From: Candidatus Streptomyces philanthi
Lineage (GTDB): Bacteria; Actinomycetota; Actinomycetes; Streptomycetales; Streptomycetaceae
Direction: 5' to 3'
Length of the DNA stretch: 64,000 bases
Assembly: GCA_018114805.1 (NCBI GenBank)
Contig: CP073042.1
Coordinates: 4,819,501 to 4,883,500, forward strand
The notes under the pieces are model-generated. The model did not search any database. It saw only the letters and a list, made by a program, of their open reading frames with translations, and had not been told where the DNA came from. Made by a program: the position numbers and the translations under genes. Shown in pieces: positions 42,591-50,330 of the stretch; the first letter of the stretch is position 1; every line of letters starts with the position of its first letter.

Positions 42591-43271
42591 TCAGGGCGCG
42601 CGCCAGAGGTAGCGGTGTTCGGGGCGGCCCGTTTCGCCGTAGCGCAAGCTCAGGCGTACGCGGCCGGCGCGCTCAAGGAGCTTCAGGTAGCGCTGGGCTG
42701 TCTGTCTGCTGAGCTGCGAGCGGTCGGCGACCTCCTGGGCGGACACCGGGCCGTCGGCGCCGCGCAGGACCTGGCGCACGATGTCCGCGGTCAGCGTGGA
42801 GTGGCCCTTGGGGAGCGCCGGGGGGCCGGCCGAGGCGCCGCCGAGGGCGCCGAAGATGCGGTCGACCTGGTCCTGGCCGGCCTCCTCGTCGGTGGCCAGC
42901 GCGCGGCGCAGCGCGGCGTAACCGTCGAGCTTGGCCCGCAGCCCGGCGAAGGTGAAGGGCTTCACCAGGTACTGGAGGGCGCCGTGGCGCATGGCGGCCT
43001 GGACGGTGACGATGTCCCGCGCGGCCGTCACCATGATCACGTCGGTGTGGTGGCCGAGTTGGCGCAGTCGGGCCACGAGGGCGAGGCCGGTCTCGTCCGG
43101 CAGGTAGTGGTCCAGCAGCACGAGGTCCACGTGGGTGCGCTCAAGGCAGGCCAGGGCCTCGGCGGCGGTGTGGGCGCGCCCGACGACGGTGAAGCCCCGT
43201 GTCTTCGTGACGTACGCGGCGTTGATGTCGGCCACCCGGACGTCGTCATCCACGACCAGTACGTCGATCAT
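42591..43271 (-). CDS. Response regulator of the CitB/DcuR type
   Basis: A 226-residue regulator. The receiver domain (residues 1-120) has acidic pocket VLVVDDDVRVA, phospho-acceptor Asp 54 in LVLLDHYLPDETGL and Lys in LQYLVKPF. The C-terminal winged-helix/HTH part is typical of the CitB group (DIVRQVLRGADGPVSAQEVA, SQLSRQTAQRYLKLLERAGR). GAGGAG precedes ATG 43271. The start overlaps the stop of the upstream sensor kinase gene by four bases, implying translational coupling. Such systems usually answer external C4-dicarboxylates or citrate. No transporter is adjacent; the nearest metabolic genes are the citrate-synthase-like pair 3 kb away. Confidence 0.92.
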   Translation of the reverse strand: MIDVLVVDDDVRVADINAAYVTKTRGFTVVGRAHTAAEALACLERTHVDLVLLDHYLPDETGLALVARLRQLGHHTDVIMVTAARDIVTVQAAMRHGALQYLVKPFTFAGLRAKLDGYAALRRALATDEEAGQDQVDRIFGALGGASAGPPALPKGHSTLTADIVRQVLRGADGPVSAQEVADRSQLSRQTAQRYLKLLERAGRVRLSLRYGETGRPEHRYLWRAP

Positions 43272-44860
43272 CGATGCTCCTCGGTGAGTGCATCCGGCAG
43301 GATGATGGTGAACTCGGCGCCGCCGGCGGCCGGGGCGCTCACGCGCGCGCTGCCGCCCTGGCGCTCGGCGAGCCGGCGCACGAGCGCGAGCCCGATGCCG
43401 CGTTTGCCGTGGGCCGGTGGCGTCTTGGTGGACCAGCCCTCGGTGAAGACCAGTTCGCGCTGGTCGGCGGGGATGCCGGGGCCGGAGTCGGTGACGCGGA
43501 CCAGGACGGTGCCGCCCTCCGCGCACAGCTCGACCTTCACCCAGGGGTCCGCGGCGCCGGGCGCCGCGTCGAGCGCGTTGTCGACCAGGTTGCCCACGAT
43601 GGTGACCAGCCCCGGCGGGTCCACCACCCGGTCCGGCAGCCAGGTGTCCGGGGAGACGCGCAGCGAGACGCCGCGCTCGGTGGCGACGGCGGCCTTGCCG
43701 ACCAGCAGGGCGGCGAGCAGCGCGTCGTGGACGCGCTCGGTGACCTGTTCGGCCGTGGCCCGGTGCACGCCGACGGCCTCGGTGATGAACTCGGCCGCCT
43801 CCTCGTACAGCCCGAGTTCCAGCAGCCCGAGCAGGGTGTGCAGCCGGTTGGCGTGCTCGTGGTCCTGGGCGCGCAGGGCGTCGATCAGGCCACGGGTGCC
43901 GTCCAGTTCGCTGCCGAGCCGTTCGAGTTCGGTGCGGTCGCGGAGGGTGGCGACGGCACCGCCGTCGTCGGTGGGCATGCGGTTGGCGACCAGCACCCGC
44001 TCGTTGCTGACGGTGAGCAGGTCGGCGCCGGTGACGCGGCCGGCGAGGACGTCCGTCGTGCGGCCGAGCGGAAGCGCCTCGTCCAGCGGCCGTCCGGTGT
44101 CGCTCGGGCTGAGGTCGAGCAGGCGCTGCGCCTCGTCGTTCACCAGCTGGATCCGGCCGTTCTTGTCGAGGGCGAGCACGCCCTCGCGGATGCCGTGCAG
44201 CATGGTCTCGCGTTCGGCCAGCAGTGCGGAGATGTCCGAGAACGCGAGGTCGTGGGTGCGGCGCTGGAGCCGGCGGGCCACCAGGTAGGCGGCGATCGCG
44301 CCCACCGCCAGCGCCCCGCCCGCGTACGCCAGCAGCCCGGGCACGGCCGAAAGGAGCCGGTCCCGGACGTTCTCGTACGCGATGCCGACGGAGACGGCGC
44401 CGACGATGCGGCCGTGCTCGTCGCGCAGCGGGACCTTGCCACGGGCTGAGCGGCCGAGCGTGCCGTGGTCGATCTCCATCAGTTCGCGCCCGGCGAGCAC
44501 CTCGCTGGGGTCGGTGGAGACCCGCTTGCCGATCTCGTCAGGGGAGGTATGGGACCAGCGCACTCCCCGGCGGTCCATGATCACGACGTACTCGGCTCCG
44601 GTGGAGCGCCGGATCGCCTCCGCCTCGGCCTGCACCGGCCCGCGCGCCGACGGGCGTCCCGTCCGCAACTCGTCGTCGAGGTGGGCGCGGGTGGCGGTGG
44701 TCTGCGCGATGGCCAGCGCTCGGCGCATGGCCTGGTCGTCCAGTTGGGAGCTGAGCGGTGCGAGGAAGAGGCCGGTGGCCAGGGCCGTGACGCCGGTGGC
44801 GATGGCCAACTGCATCAGCAGCACCTGTGAGAAGACGCGCCGGGGACACCCGATCCGCAT
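43268..44860 (-). CDS. Sensor histidine kinase of the CitA/DcuS type
   Basis: A 530-residue membrane sensor. The first membrane segment (VFSQVLLMQLAIATGVTALA) is at about residues 10-33, then an extracytoplasmic PAS-like sensor domain (EAIRRSTGAEYVVIMDRRGV, GRSARGKVPLRDEHGRIVGA). A second membrane segment (LLAYAGGALAVGAIAAYLVA) and a cytoplasmic PAS domain follow. The phospho-acceptor His is in RAQDHEHANRLHTLLGL. The ATPase domain shows NLVDNALDAAPG, DSGPGIP and GIGLALVRRLAE. ATG 44860 has GGAGG seven bases upstream, better than the longer reading to 44944. It is the first gene of the pair with the response regulator. Confidence 0.92.
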   Translation of the reverse strand: MRIGCPRRVFSQVLLMQLAIATGVTALATGLFLAPLSSQLDDQAMRRALAIAQTTATRAHLDDELRTGRPSARGPVQAEAEAIRRSTGAEYVVIMDRRGVRWSHTSPDEIGKRVSTDPSEVLAGRELMEIDHGTLGRSARGKVPLRDEHGRIVGAVSVGIAYENVRDRLLSAVPGLLAYAGGALAVGAIAAYLVARRLQRRTHDLAFSDISALLAERETMLHGIREGVLALDKNGRIQLVNDEAQRLLDLSPSDTGRPLDEALPLGRTTDVLAGRVTGADLLTVSNERVLVANRMPTDDGGAVATLRDRTELERLGSELDGTRGLIDALRAQDHEHANRLHTLLGLLELGLYEEAAEFITEAVGVHRATAEQVTERVHDALLAALLVGKAAVATERGVSLRVSPDTWLPDRVVDPPGLVTIVGNLVDNALDAAPGAADPWVKVELCAEGGTVLVRVTDSGPGIPADQRELVFTEGWSTKTPPAHGKRGIGLALVRRLAERQGGSARVSAPAAGGAEFTIILPDALTEEHR

Positions 44861-45104
44861 CCGTCCGCCTCCGCTCTGTCCCCCGTCGCCACCGCGGCCA
44901 GCCCTGGCCCGGACCGGTGGAACTGCCCCTGCCGACCCGCTCATGGGGATGAACGTACGGGGACGCGGCTGCCGGTGCCGTGTTCTGAGAGGTGATCAGT
45001 GTCCGTTCTAGCGTGAGCAAAAGGAGCAGAACAGAGAGCAGAACGTTTTCGCTCGGCCCCGGCGACGCGGACGGCCTGGTGACGGGGCACGGGCGCCGTG
45101 GTGG

Positions 45105-46154
45105 CTAGCCGGCGGCCAGCGGGGCCGCCGGCAGGGGATGGATGGACACGACTTCGAGGCGAGCGGGGGGTGCCGAGGGCGGCGCCGCAGCTCTCGGGGC
45201 GGGGCGGGTCGGAGGGCGACTGGGACAGGAAGACCCGCCAGGCGCGGCCGTCGACGTGCGTGACGGTGGCGCTCCAGTCAGCCCCGTTGACGGGGGCCGC
45301 GTCGTGGGCGGTGTCCGTCGTGGGGTGCGCGGGCCGGGCCACCACGTCCGAGACGGTCAGCGCGTCGGCCCGGTCCTCCCCGGTGTGCCGGCGTATGGCC
45401 AGGTCGGCGGCCTGTCCGGGGCGGTCCCACGGGGAGCGGCCCCGTGCGCCGGCGACGACGACGCGGCCCCGTCGCGCGGAGGCGAGCACCTCCTTCACGG
45501 AGTGGGCGGTGGCCCGGCCGTAGGCGTATCCGTACGGCAGCACGAGCAGGGTGGGGGAGAAGCGGTGGCCGGCCGATGTGGGTGATCTCCCAGACGTCGG
45601 TGGCGCTGGCGGCCAGTTCCACGGCGAGTGGGCGGCCGAGCAGGGCGCAGCAGCGGTCGCGCTTGCCGTTGGTGCACACGAAGGCCAGGGGTTCGCCCTC
45701 GTACGGGCTCCACCGCGCCGGCGCGGTGGGGGCACCCGGGGGCGAGGCGGGGGGCGCCCACGGCGCGAAAGGGCGCTGGGTGGCCAGCGGGAGCGCCCGT
45801 ACGTCGCCGGCTCCCAGGGCCGCGAAGTCCAGCGCGAGCAGCGCCGACGGGTCGCTGACCTCGGTCGTGCGCATCCACGACCGGCCGGGCAGGGTGTGCG
45901 GCGAACACCCGCTGCCGCGTCGGGAGGCGGCGGTCGGCGTGCCGCCCGGGCCATCGGATCAGGGCGACGCGGACACCGGTGCCCTCCGCCGCACGCTCCA
46001 GCGCGCGACCGACCTCGGGGTCGAGGTGGCTGGCGGTGAGGGCCTTCGCGCCCCAGGGGCCGGTCTGCTCGATCAGGAGCCAGGTGCGGGTAGCGGCGGC
46101 GGTACCCGCGAGGGGCTCGGCCAGCTCCCGCGAACTGGTCGCACAGGTGCTCAC
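45105..46154 (-). pseudogene. Sucrase/ferredoxin-like protein, iron-box controlled, frameshifted
   Basis: A thioredoxin-like iron-sulphur protein of the sucrase/ferredoxin-like family. Segments in order: STCATSSRELAEPLAGTAAA and WLLIEQTGPWGAKALTASHL in one frame; LLALDFAALGAGDVRALPLA and FVCTNGKRDRCCALLGRPLA (cysteine motif) in a second after about 45870; FSPTLLVLPYGYAYGRATAH and WRVFLSQSPSDPPRPESCGA in a third after about 45560. The natural end (LEVVSIHPLPAAPLAAG, TAG at 45105) needs a further shift near 45180. The GTG start 46154 directly adjoins an iron box. Relatives of this family sit with siderophore genes, which suggests a role in iron release or reduction. Confidence 0.72.
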
Positions 46155-46173
46155 GCAGGCGAGCCTAACCTGA
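46155..46173 (-). promoter_or_regulatory. Iron box (DmdR/IdeR operator)
   Basis: Read on the minus strand: TCAGGTTAGGCTCGCCTGC. It matches 15 of 19 positions of the DmdR1/IdeR consensus TTAGGTTAGGCTCACCTAA, including the central GGTTAGGCTC. It abuts the start codon of the sucrase/ferredoxin-like gene, so iron-loaded repressor would block it. Confidence 0.78.
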
Positions 46174-46360
46174 GCTGTGGCCGCGCCCGGGCGGTACGGG
46201 CCTTCGTTGCTCACTCCGTGAGCAACGATGACGCGGCTTCTGGCGATCGGTGGCGCGGCGAGGGCGATGCCATCGGTTCCGCCGTATGGGGGACGGGAGG
46301 GAGGTGACGTGTACGGGGCGCGCGGGCCGCGCGCCCCGTACGCCGGTCCCCGGGGGCGCA

Positions 46361-47689
46361 CTACGGCATCGGCTGGGGCGGTTTGGGCCCCCGGTAGTGG
46401 CCGCGGGGGCGCATGCGCAGGGGGTGTTCGGCGTACTCCTCCAGCGCGTGCGCGATCCAGCCCGCCACCCGGCCCACCGCGGACACCGTCTCGCCGGCCT
46501 CGGGCGGCATGTCGGCCGACACGGTCAGCACGGCGAGCGCGAGGTCCACGTTGGCGTGCGACCGCGTGCGCTGGGCGGCGGTCGCCGCGACCTCGCGCGC
46601 GGCGGCCAGGGCGTCCGCCGCGCCGGGCACCTTCGCGAGCAGCGCGAAAAGGGCCTGTGCGCGCGGGTCGTGCGCCGGGTAGAGTCGGTGGCCGAGCCCC
46701 GGGACCCCACCGCCGGCGCGCAACTGGTCCGCCACCACGGCCGCCGCGCTCCCGCGCTCCAGGACCTCAGCCAGCATGCGGTGCGCGAGCCCGCTCGCCG
46801 CGCCGTGCAGTGGCCCGTCCGCCGCGCCGAGCCCGGCGGACACGGCCGCGTACGGATGGGCCCGCGCCGAGGCTGCCACCCGGACGGCCAGCGTGGACGC
46901 GGCCAGGTCGTGGTCGATGAGCAGCACGAGCGCGCTCTGGAGCACGCGCAGCGAGGCGGGGCCCGCGGGGCGGGGCGAGAGCCGTAGCCAGAGCTGCTCG
47001 GCGACGCTCGGCGGGAGCGCGTCGTCGCTGGCGGGCGCGGCGTCGCCGGCGCGGGGCCCGTCGGCCGCCGGCACGCGCTGGCCGGGCGCCGGGGGCAGGG
47101 CGTCCACCAGCGTGGCGATCAGGCTGCGGGCGCTGGTCAGCACCGTCCGCTCGGTCAGGTCGAAGCGGAGCGGGTCCGCGGCCGCGGCGGCGATGGCGGC
47201 GACCCGCAGCCCGTCCATCGGGCCGCTGTGCGCGGGGAGCGCGGAGACCGCCCGACGCGCCGCGGCGCGCGTCTCCGGCGGGGCGGTGAACCGGACGCCG
47301 GGGCTGAGCCGCCCGGTCCACAGCCACTCGGCCACCTCCTCGTACCCGTGCCGCCGCGCCAGCGCCGTGGCGTCCACGCCGCGGTAGTAGTACCGGTCCG
47401 GCTCGATGAGGGTGATGCCGGTGCGCACCACGGTGTCCCCCGGGGCCGGCTGTCCCTGGGGCCGCTCCGCGGTCTCGCGCCGCCCGCGCCGGAGCAGCGC
47501 CTCGACCTCGCCGGCGTCGAAGGTACTGCCCCGCGCGCCCGGCGCGCGCCGGCTGGTGAGCTGGCCGCGGCTGACGTACGCGTACACCGTCTCGTGCTTG
47601 ACGCCGAGTAGTTCGGCGGCCTCGCGCGTGGTCAGTCGGCGCTCGCCGCGTCCGGTCTCTGGTTCGGTGTCCGACTCCGTGTCCGCCAT
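46361..47689 (-). CDS. Citrate synthase-like protein with N-terminal helix-turn-helix
   Basis: A 442-residue protein. Residues 17-70 form a MerR/excisionase-type DNA-binding domain (RRLTTREAAELLGVKHETVY, AYVSRGQLTSRR). The rest is a citrate synthase fold with active-site elements GPLHGAASG (His), GLGHRLYPAHDPRA (His) and SHANVDLALAVL (Asp). An acidic/Ala insert lies near residues 225-250. ATG 47689 has GTGAGG close by. It is divergent from a second citrate-synthase-like gene across an AT-rich gap with three AATCAATAT copies. The fused domain suggests that it may be both enzyme and DNA-binding sensor, or a regulator with a degenerate enzyme domain. Confidence 0.85.
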   Translation of the reverse strand: MADTESDTEPETGRGERRLTTREAAELLGVKHETVYAYVSRGQLTSRRAPGARGSTFDAGEVEALLRRGRRETAERPQGQPAPGDTVVRTGITLIEPDRYYYRGVDATALARRHGYEEVAEWLWTGRLSPGVRFTAPPETRAAARRAVSALPAHSGPMDGLRVAAIAAAAADPLRFDLTERTVLTSARSLIATLVDALPPAPGQRVPAADGPRAGDAAPASDDALPPSVAEQLWLRLSPRPAGPASLRVLQSALVLLIDHDLAASTLAVRVAASARAHPYAAVSAGLGAADGPLHGAASGLAHRMLAEVLERGSAAAVVADQLRAGGGVPGLGHRLYPAHDPRAQALFALLAKVPGAADALAAAREVAATAAQRTRSHANVDLALAVLTVSADMPPEAGETVSAVGRVAGWIAHALEEYAEHPLRMRPRGHYRGPKPPQPMP

Positions 47690-47726
47690 GACCTCACCGT
47701 ATCCATGCTGATGGGCTCCCCTCGAC

Positions 47727-47796
47727 ATATTGATTTGTTTCTCTTTAATCAATATTAATAGCTTTATCATGTGTACTGTACATTCAAAATCAATAT
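47727..47796. promoter_or_regulatory. Three AATCAATAT repeats between the citrate-synthase-like genes
   Basis: ATATTGATT at 47727-47735 and its exact complement AATCAATAT at 47747-47755 form an inverted repeat with an 11-base spacer; a third copy is at 47788-47796. The patch is strikingly AT-rich for this genome and fills the divergent promoter region. The natural candidate ligand is the helix-turn-helix domain of the adjacent gene. Confidence 0.65.
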
Positions 47797-47818
47797 GAAG
47801 CGAGAAGGGGAGTCGAAC

Positions 47819-49059
47819 ATGCCGATCCAGGAGCCGGAAGCAGTCGCCCAAGCGCCGCGAGCGCCGCTGCCGAGCGGCGGCGAGCAGCCGCCCTCCCGAG
47901 GCCGGACGCGGGACGGTGCTCCGATCGAGGTGCCGCGCGGGCTCGCGGGAGTCGTTGTGACCGACACCGCGCTCGGCGACGTCCGTGGCCGCGAGGGCTT
48001 CTACCACTACCGCCAGTACTCCGCCGTCGAACTCGCCGAAAGCCGCACCTTCGAGGACGTATGGCACCTGCATGTTCTACGGAGAGCTGCCGGACGCCGC
48101 GCGCCGTGCCGCGTTCACGGCGCAGACCGCCGCCCTGCGCCGGCTCCCCGAGGCGCTGCGGGCCGCGCTTGCCTGGCATCGCCCGCGCCGGCGGGCCCTC
48201 GGGGCCGCTCGCCGGGCTGCGCACGGCGCTCTCCCTGCTCGGCGCGTCCGCCGGGTTCCGGCCGCTGTACGACATCGACACCGAGCGCCGGCGCACGGAC
48301 GCGCTGGCGGCGTGCGCCGCCGTACCCACGTTGCTCACCGCGCTCCACCGGCTCGGCGAGGGCCTCGAACCGGTCGAGCCACGGGACGACCTCCCGTACG
48401 CCGCCAACTACCTCTACATGCTGAGCGGCACCGAGCCGGAGCCGGAGCGCGCCCGCGCCGTCGAGCGGTACCTGATCTCCACCGTCGACCACGGGTTCAA
48501 CGCCTCCACCTTCACCGCCCGCGTGATCACCTCCACCTGCGCCGATCTCGCCGCCTGCCTGGTGGGCGCGGTGGGCGCGTTGTCGGGGCCGCTGCACGGG
48601 GGCGCGCCGAGCCGGGCCCTGGACACGCTCGACGCCATCAGCACCCCCGACCGGATCGACGCCTGGATCAGGGAACGGGTGCGGGCGGGGGAGCGGATCA
48701 TGGGGTTCGGGCACCCCGTCTACCGCACCGAGGACCCGCGCTCACGGATGCTGCGCGGCGTCGCCCGGAGCTTCGGCGGCCCGCTCGTGGACTTCGCCGT
48801 ACAGGTGGAGGAGCAGATGGAGGCGATCCTGGCGGAGCTGAAGCCGGGTCGCGAACTGCACACCAACGTCGAGTTCTACGCCGGCGTCGTGATGGAGCTG
48901 TGCGGGCTGCCGCGTGCCATGTTCACGCCGACGTTCGCCGCGGCCCGCGTGGTCGGCTGGAGCGGCAATATCCTGGAGCAGGCGGAGGACTCGAAGATCA
49001 TCCGCCCGGCGGCCCGCTACGTCGGCCCGCCACCGCCGCAGCCCGTGCCCACCGTGTGA
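47819..49059 (+). pseudogene. Second citrate synthase-like protein, frameshifted
   Basis: A citrate/methylcitrate synthase-like enzyme. The N-terminus GVVVTDTALGDVRGREGFYH and YRQYSAVELAESRTFEDVWH is in frame 2. FYGELPDAARRAAFTAQTAA is in frame 3 from about 48068. The rest is in frame 1 from about 48172: FNASTFTARVITSTCADLAA, GPLHGGAPS (His), GFGHPVYRTEDPRS (His), HTNVEFYAG. Each shift is explained by one extra base. GGGGAGTCGAAC precedes ATG 47819. The last 290 residues are uninterrupted. It overlaps or abuts the CobW gene downstream. Confidence 0.8.
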
Positions 49060-49070
49060 GAGGTCCCCCG

Positions 49071-50330
49071 TTGAGCGAGCAGCAGATCCCGGTCATCGTC
49101 CTCGCGGGCTTTCTGGGGTCGGGCAAGACCACCCTGCTCAACCACCTGCTCCGGCACAGCGGCGACACGCGGATCGGCGTCATCGTCAACGACTTCGGCT
49201 CGATCGAGATCGACGCCATGAGCGTGTCGGGGCAGGTGGGATCGACCGTCTCACTCGGCAACGGGTGCCTGTGCTGCGCCGTGGACGTTAGCGAACTCGA
49301 CGGTTACCTGGACACCCTGACCGTCTCCGCCGCCCGCCTGGACGTCATCGTCATCGAGGCGAGCGGGCTCGCCGAACCGCAGGAACTCGTGCGCATGGTG
49401 CTGGCCAGCGACAACCGGCGGGTGGTCTACGGGGGCCTGGTCGAGGTCGCCGACGCGGCCGAGTTCGCCGCCACCCGGGAGCGCCACCCGGAACTCGACC
49501 GGCACCTGGCCATCGCCGACCTGGTCGTGCTGAACAAGGCCTACCGGGTCCCGCCGACCGAACTGGCTGCCCTCCGGGACACCCTCGACGAACTGAGCCG
49601 GGGCACGGCGGTGATCGTCGCGGAGCACGGCCGTGTCGATCCGGAACTGCTCTTCGCGTGCCGCCCGCGCGATGAGAGCGCCGGGCGACAGCTCTCCTTC
49701 GAGGACCTGCGCGCCGAGTCGGACCCCGGCGACGGCGACGGGCACGCCGGCCACCCACACGCCACGTACGAGAGCCTCGCGTTCACCTCGTCCGTGCCGC
49801 TGCACCCGAGGCGGCTGATGGATTTCCTCGACGCGCGACCGGCGGGGCTCTACCGGATCAAGGGATTCGTCGACTTCGGGACCGGCGACCCGCGCAACCG
49901 GTACGTGCTGCACGCGGTCGGGCGCTTCCTGCGCTTCTACCCGGAGCCCTGGCCCTCGGGCGAGCCCCGGCTGACCCAACTCGTGCTCATCGGCTCGGGC
50001 GTCGACGCCCCCGCCCTGCGCGAACAGCTCACCGGCTGCCGGGTGGACGACGCCCCGGTGGCGCGGGCGGCGGATGTGGCATGGGCGCGACCAGCGGCCG
50101 GCGTCGCGCTGCCGGGTGAGCCCGGCGCGAGCGCGGCCGACTTCCCGCTGCTGGCCCAGCGCGCCGCCGAGTCCGCCGAGCCGACCGCGACCCCGACCGC
50201 GCTCCCGGCCGCCGAGGGTGACTCGGGGGCCGGCTCGGGCGGGTTGGCGGAGGTCTCGGTTGTGGCGCGCGCCATGTGGGGCGTGCTGCGGTACGTCCAG
50301 CACCAGGACCGCGAGCAGGACGAGGAGTAG
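49071..50330 (+). CDS. CobW/COG0523 G3E GTPase, metal-chaperone type
   Basis: A 419-residue GTPase. Walker A GFLGSGKTT is at residues 13-21, the metal-binding CxCC in NGCLCCAV at about 64-71, and Walker B/linker VIVIEASGLAEPQEL. The C-terminal CobW domain contains FTSSVPLHPRRLMDFLDARP and GLYRIKGFVDFG, and a His-rich patch GHAGHPHA. The guanine-specificity motif reads NKAY (residues 155-158) instead of NKxD. TTG 49071 has GAGAGG seven bases upstream; a GTG at 49056 overlapping the preceding stop is an alternative. The protein is likely to deliver zinc or cobalt to a target enzyme. The partner is unknown. Confidence 0.85.
   Translation: MSEQQIPVIVLAGFLGSGKTTLLNHLLRHSGDTRIGVIVNDFGSIEIDAMSVSGQVGSTVSLGNGCLCCAVDVSELDGYLDTLTVSAARLDVIVIEASGLAEPQELVRMVLASDNRRVVYGGLVEVADAAEFAATRERHPELDRHLAIADLVVLNKAYRVPPTELAALRDTLDELSRGTAVIVAEHGRVDPELLFACRPRDESAGRQLSFEDLRAESDPGDGDGHAGHPHATYESLAFTSSVPLHPRRLMDFLDARPAGLYRIKGFVDFGTGDPRNRYVLHAVGRFLRFYPEPWPSGEPRLTQLVLIGSGVDAPALREQLTGCRVDDAPVARAADVAWARPAAGVALPGEPGASAADFPLLAQRAAESAEPTATPTALPAAEGDSGAGSGGLAEVSVVARAMWGVLRYVQHQDREQDEE

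Follow-up and report, generated by a model that had tools for sequence, protein, structure and literature searches.

Organization of the locus

Two citrate synthase-like genes lie divergently in the window (the whole 64-kb stretch of DNA that was analysed), one of which, here called the fusion gene, also encodes a helix-turn-helix (HTH), while the other is referred to as its partner. The features on which the analysis draws are, in order of position:

42591..43286, minus strand: DcuR-like response regulator (below NCBI's curated cut-off)
43268..44944, minus strand: DcuS/MalK-like sensor kinase (below NCBI's curated cut-off)
46361..47689, minus strand: fusion gene (HTH + citrate synthase), 442 aa, Pfam HTH_17 and Citrate_synt
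46403..47431, minus strand: citrate synthase domain, residues 87-429 (Pfam; fold match to (methyl)citrate synthases)
47468..47638, minus strand: winged HTH, residues 18-74, BldC/excisionase-like (AlphaFold2 secondary structure; weak PDB sequence matches)
47696..47701, minus strand: -10-like hexamer TACGGT, 6 nt before the fusion gene's ATG (putative promoter element)
47727-47735, minus strand: operator copy 1 (AATCAATAT), inverted-repeat arm; exact, conserved in relatives
47747-47755, plus strand: operator copy 2 (AATCAATAT), other arm; exact, 11 bp from copy 1 versus 1 bp in most Streptomyces
47755..47782, plus strand: putative partner promoter (conserved block in 81 gaps; alignment with S. 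buecherae)
47788-47796, plus strand: operator copy 3 (AATCAATAT); exact, 41 bp from copy 2
47819..49059, plus strand: partner citrate synthase, start ATG 47819, frame broken at ~48071 and ~48169 in the assembly
49071..50330, plus strand: CobW/COG0523-type GTPase gene, start codon uncertain; beside the synthase in relatives too

Gene order, together with the accessible portions of two papers (PMC12323332, PMC9739823), makes the fusion gene the orthologue of SCO5831/citA3 and the divergent synthase that of SCO5832/citA4. A longer open reading frame start was rejected for the fusion gene in favor of the ATG at 47689, which is the most likely start: in 80 of the 81 gaps between synthase pairs the -10-like hexamer precedes the start codon by 6 or 7 nt, the pattern of a leaderless transcript. 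The partner's frame is interrupted by two single-base insertions relative to S. buecherae (L006), and on the other side a sucrase/ferredoxin-like gene (SucFd, 45166-46181, minus strand) is spread over three frames in the window and occupies one in both S. buecherae and L007. The breaks in these two genes reflect either errors of assembly or decay of both neighbours; the intervening fusion gene is open, as are CobW and parC (the flanking genes we take to be parC/parE). The CobW/COG0523 gene begins 11 bp past the partner synthase, and it is retained at the seven fetched loci that have lost the synthase pair or carry it broken. The CitA/DcuS-type two-component pair reported nearby in a preliminary description of this DNA is real, as a DcuS-like kinase and a DcuR-like regulator.

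A winged helix-turn-helix on a divergent citrate synthase

Both domains reside on a single chain, as had been read from the letters alone: Pfam places HTH_17 at residues 19-69 (E 4.9e-07) and Citrate_synt at residues 87-429 (E 7.6e-59). The secondary structure predicted by AlphaFold2 (E18-20, H21-28, H32-40, E46-48, E55-58, H59-74) agrees with a MerR/BldC-like winged HTH, for which HTH_17 scores above and Pfam MerR below cut-off. PDB sequence matches are weak (4j2n, E 0.05; BldC 6ama, E 0.32 and 6amk, E 0.75), and the NCBIfam model HTH_BldC matches below its cut-off (E 4.3e-04). Two hallmarks of classical MerR proteins are absent: the coiled coil, the C-terminal part of the chain being citrate synthase according to Pfam, and placement of the operator between -35 and -10, its distance from the fusion gene's own -10 being variable.

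Foldseek returns PrpC and citrate synthases as the top matches to the synthase domain (E 4.4e-14, and <1e-12 for the 50 best listed), which together with the Pfam domain assigns it to the citrate/2-methylcitrate synthase superfamily. It reached no named enzyme model among NCBIfam (best score 147 bits against a cut-off of 332) and is a divergent subfamily. Residues H260, H295, H334, R343, D382 and R407 are invariant across 38 aligned orthologues and align with 2c6x and 6abx; they correspond to the catalytic His, His and Asp plus the oxaloacetate-binding His/Arg. This invariance fits a fusion protein that still binds substrates. The catalytic Asp reads as D in the fusion protein at 70 of 93 loci (unreadable at 23), and as Glu in the partner synthase at 52 of 93 (unreadable at 41), a replacement that the alignment also finds in the B. 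subtilis protein 2c6x.

A conserved operator in the divergent gap

The gap does contain three exact copies of the 9-mer AATCAATAT, two of them as an inverted repeat, within an AT-rich patch (GC 43% in 47700-47849, about 70-80% further out), all as first described. Allowing one mismatch, the 9-mer occurs at these three places only in the 64 kb, where 0.17 are expected, and none of 100 shuffles reached three. A fourth exact copy in the 7.34-Mb genome was rejected as a site; it lies inside a 211-codon reading frame.

The preliminary description had staked its reading on the repeats recurring in other Streptomyces, and they do. We compared 81 gaps, those of the 80 named loci fetched (the best 80 of 359 relatives) and that of the window. 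The palindrome ATATTGATT-N-AATCAATAT was found with at most 4 mismatches in 79 of these, S. buecherae included with its arms 11 bp apart: 0 mismatches in 9 gaps, 1 in 30, 2 in 26, 3 in 10, 4 in 4 and 5 in 2. Among 1620 shuffled gaps (20 per gap) 4 mismatches were reached three times and fewer never. The two gaps with 5 mismatches are those of the window and L039, and S. buecherae has 4; because the centre is 11 bp instead of 1 bp in the window and S. buecherae, their arms fit better than these scores suggest. Reduced to TTGAY-N3-RTCAA, the repeat is found in 77/81 gaps, with N13 in the window and S. buecherae and an imperfect arm in L029 and L039. By this comparison the repeat in the window is a 19-bp palindrome that has been stretched by 10 bp, or about one helix turn, between its arms. 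The first reading of the repeats thus stands as to their conservation, and had missed both the stretched 19-bp palindrome and the second target gene described below. Four other genera, belonging to three families, contributed 13 further gaps (L264-L276, seven from one genus); all 13 also carry TTGAY-N3/4-RTCAA, N4 in 12 and N3 in one, a repeat met in 8 of 4700 shuffled stretches.

Further TTGAYY-type half-sites occur 40 bp (71/81 gaps) and 21 bp (61/81) upstream, near whole helix turns, and copy 3 in the window is the counterpart of the 40-bp one. The 40-bp half-site and the partner's -10 together make up a conserved block, TTGATTCGACTGTCC. The position assigned to the partner's -35 reads TTGACA in most relatives and TTAATA in the window, where it abuts operator copy 2; the -10 position reads TGGACA in most relatives. 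On the other side, the distance from the palindrome to the fusion gene's -10 is 13 bp in 6 gaps, 22-25 in 24, 33-38 in 34, 41-46 in 10 and 66-67 in 3, of 80 gaps ranging from 13 to 82 bp. These spacers repeat with a period of about one helix turn: 38 of them, dereplicated by a crude 60% identity rule from 78 of the 81 gaps (the window and L039, with 5 mismatches, and L077, with no recognised hexamer, were dropped), give R 0.63 at 11.2 bp and 0.59 at 10.5 bp, and none of 5000 jittered sets was phased as strongly.

The operator tracks the fusion gene

The fusion gene is present in 97 of 150 Streptomyces genomes (E<1e-50), in pieces in three of them (G102, G112, G137). The palindrome, at no more than 2 mismatches, occurs in 88 of these 97 genomes and in 0 of the 53 without the gene, counts that are inflated by relatedness among the genomes and that treat G144, which retains a C-terminal fragment, as lacking the gene. 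Nine genomes have the gene and no match at this threshold. Two of them (G000, G031) carry the form with the N11 centre; of the other seven (L161-L167), four have best matrix scores of 41-47, two score 29 and 19, and G060, whose operator has one extra base in its centre, scores 0.9. In this the fusion protein resembles a trigger enzyme or one-component regulator: enzyme and DNA-binding domain share a polypeptide, and a conserved operator goes with their gene.

Rearranged loci were also seen. In G032 (L160) the synthase genes stand in tandem, each preceded by the same 19-bp palindrome, as though a rearrangement had duplicated the intergenic region. The synthase pair has been separated naturally in four genomes: G013 (L169), G107 (L326) and G110 (L168) retain neither the partner synthase nor the local operator but do keep the fusion gene and an operator at a CoA-transferase gene, and the fragmented assembly G102 (L331) keeps the same two features and a weak local site, its partner synthase being gone.

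A CoA-transferase gene as predicted second target

The 88 genomes contain 101 palindrome places, and all of the 75 among those listed lie either at the synthase pair or fusion gene or immediately 5' of a single class III CoA-transferase gene (PF02515 at residues 208-409 of 455, E 7.7e-52), which we predict to be a second target in many relatives. A 27-column matrix trained on the synthase gaps alone was run on 93 of 96 CoA-transferase upstream regions; G112 and G019, with an unmatched 5' end, and G060, only 40% identical, were left out. Of the 56 genomes with the fusion gene, 25 have a site scoring at least 8.7 (next best 1.5), against none of the 37 without it (best score -3.2), so that 31 of the 56 genomes having both genes lack it. 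At 21 of the 25 sites a CATAGT-like hexamer follows 2 bp after the end of the palindrome, and the hexamer lies 6 nt from the ATG. One genome without the fusion gene (G067) has a GC-shifted TTGACTCAGTCAA at its CoA-transferase (matrix score -7.5), which we interpret as the remains of an operator. In the window's own genome no orthologue of the CoA-transferase is present at E<1e-60.

Because the genomes are related, a CoA-transferase tree was built from 53 of the 93 rows, selected mostly for their higher identity. On this tree the pattern of absence of the fusion gene requires 10 changes, of which well-supported branches force at least 5; since 3 of 500 label shuffles were as low, absence is partly clustered. 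The operator is missing in all 16 tree rows without the fusion gene, and within the main clade (41 rows, midpoint-rooted and poorly resolved) it is present in 23 of 28 rows with the gene and 0 of 13 without. Thirteen genomes in the tree have both genes and no site, 8 of them outside the main clade and 5 inside.

Among further TTGAYTNARTCAA places in 36 genomes, the off-locus ones comprise one in G090 and others of which five were inspected (L332, L333, L335, L344, L359). These five have differing surroundings, one sitting between TTGAC-type repeats beside a MarR-like frame, and we therefore claim no third target. The TTGACT-type repeats at 1501-1513 of L332 (G013), upstream of a MarR-like frame, are perhaps that regulator's own operator.

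Which protein binds the operator

Co-occurrence makes the fusion protein the likely binder, the operator following the fusion gene even though the DcuS/DcuR-like pair persists without it at the loci checked. This is the simplest reading; less simply, some third factor lost together with the fusion gene might bind instead. The preliminary description had also raised a link to the two-component pair, by which the DcuR/CitB-like regulator 3 kb away would bind the repeats and the synthase pair would be a target of a dicarboxylate/citrate two-component system. Kinase and regulator do adjoin the pair in most loci whose flank extends far enough, and a proteomics paper suggests, in the portion accessible, that the DcuS/DcuR-like pair might repress SCO5831 (PMC9739823). 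The operator, however, does not go with the response regulator. At all seven loci examined that are without an intact fusion gene (one with a partner synthase remnant, G022, and one with a fusion gene fragment, G144) CobW, SucFd, the sensor kinase and the response regulator are kept, in a gene-order tally that is only indicative, the overlap filter having removed the fusion gene from some rows, and no matrix match above 0 occurs at any of the seven. The regulator likewise matches at E<1e-85 in 12 of the 13 genomes of the main clade in which neither the fusion gene nor the CoA-transferase operator is present (in the remaining one, G130, it matches at E 5.5e-56), and that operator is absent from 37/37 genomes without the fusion gene. 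The proposed link is thus disfavoured, and we consider binding by the DcuR/CitB-like regulator very improbable.

BldC, MtrA and Lsr2 have many targets and, as far as is known, are present in all Streptomyces, and the palindrome could merely be the site of such a global, AT-preferring regulator. This too we judge a slim prospect, since the palindrome tracks one gene and two loci. In its favor, the HTH of BldC resembles that of the fusion protein, and the accessible part of one study reports that MtrA binds the S. coelicolor gap probe in gel shift and lowers citA3/citA4 expression, which is raised in an mtrA mutant (PMC12323332). The S. coelicolor MtrA site, in such part of that work as was accessible, resembles the conserved block TTGATTCGACTGTCC, not the palindrome core, when compared with the relatives' gaps. 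MtrA acting at the gap means that more than one regulator operates there.

Similarly improbable is a Crp/Fnr-family protein binding the half-sites as those of an FNR box (TTGAT-N4-ATCAA), a spacing found in 12 of the 13 other-genus gaps and opposed by N3 in 77/81 gaps of the Streptomyces set, by N13 in the window and S. buecherae, and by the restriction of the 75 listed palindrome places (of 101) to two loci, none in a genome without the fusion gene.

Proposed mechanism

The fusion protein is very probably, to judge from these comparisons, a one-component regulator of the trigger-enzyme type that binds its own gap and the site upstream of the CoA-transferase gene, most likely as a repressor. 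The earlier proposal of an enzyme-regulator controlling its own locus through the repeats is in this respect strongly borne out by the conserved operator and its co-occurrence with the fusion gene. In the mechanism we envisage, the citrate synthase dimer would pair two N-terminal winged HTHs, which would bind TTGATT half-sites in inverted and in-phase direct arrangement. At the first site, in the gap between fusion gene and partner, the palindrome abuts the putative -35 of the partner and a further half-site would cover the partner's -10 and start region. The second site, in many relatives, would lie directly upstream of the -10 of the class III CoA-transferase gene. Bound fusion protein would most likely repress these promoters, and occupancy of the intact synthase pocket by oxaloacetate, acetyl-CoA or citrate may shift its affinity for DNA.

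Repression is favored by the predicted occlusion of the partner and CoA-transferase promoters, and for those two promoters we hold it to be reasonably likely. The helical phasing also fits activation, which may apply at the promoter of the fusion gene, whose -10 lies at a distance of 13 to 82 bp from the operator. More tentatively, as a possibility rather than an expectation, the protein might be active as a citrate (or methylcitrate) synthase and set transcription through its catalytic state: filling with oxaloacetate and acetyl-CoA would close the dimer, move the paired HTHs and release the in-phase half-sites, tuning the second synthase and the CoA-transferase, both in Streptomyces and in those other actinobacterial genera that carry an operator of this type. 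Members of the family were found (E<1e-35) in 14 genera, counting Streptomyces, out of 114 in a class-wide sample of 296 genomes; in one of the 13 non-Streptomyces genera the match stops short of the HTH.

Comparison with known systems

The literature searched, to which most subscription journals are external, yielded neither TTGATTGAATCAA nor an HTH-citrate synthase with an operator, and the accessible portions of papers mentioning SCO5831 contained no DNA binding by it. Within that coverage the operator, its binder and the CoA-transferase target appear undescribed. For a family of HTH-citrate synthases that is annotated but functionally unexplained in the same literature, the comparison thereby supplies a cognate operator and predicts both its binder and a second target. 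Here a central metabolic enzyme probably serves as a gene switch, as far as genome comparison can tell. If so, a citrate synthase would function as a transcription factor carrying its own oxaloacetate/acetyl-CoA sensor, and the state of the TCA cycle would be linked directly to gene expression in antibiotic-producing bacteria.

PutA, NadR and BirA are trigger enzymes that couple metabolite occupancy to transcription, and the fusion protein is like them in joining a metabolic enzyme to a DNA-binding domain; to our knowledge none of the three is a citrate synthase. Also related are proteins named 'citrate synthase family protein' on proteobacterial plasmid records, a name given by annotation only. 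Their tblastn alignments (29-47% identity in the best 25 of 268 records) begin within the HTH, at query residue 29 or 30, and extend across the synthase domain, leaving part of the HTH outside. Caulobacter CitA is a citrate synthase with a regulatory role independent of its enzymatic activity, and it differs, on the portion of the report accessible, in being a regulator of a cell cycle checkpoint (PMC7083601). A counterpart of the HTH itself is the MerR-like Streptomyces protein BldC, whose winged HTH is of the same type according to the weak matches to 6ama and 6amk. BldC binds DNA repeats as cooperative multimers and, as described in the accessible part of its structural report, is a protein of 68 residues that has no effector domain and recognizes direct repeats (PMC5859096), whereas here the HTH is carried on a citrate synthase and the core of the operator is an inverted repeat.
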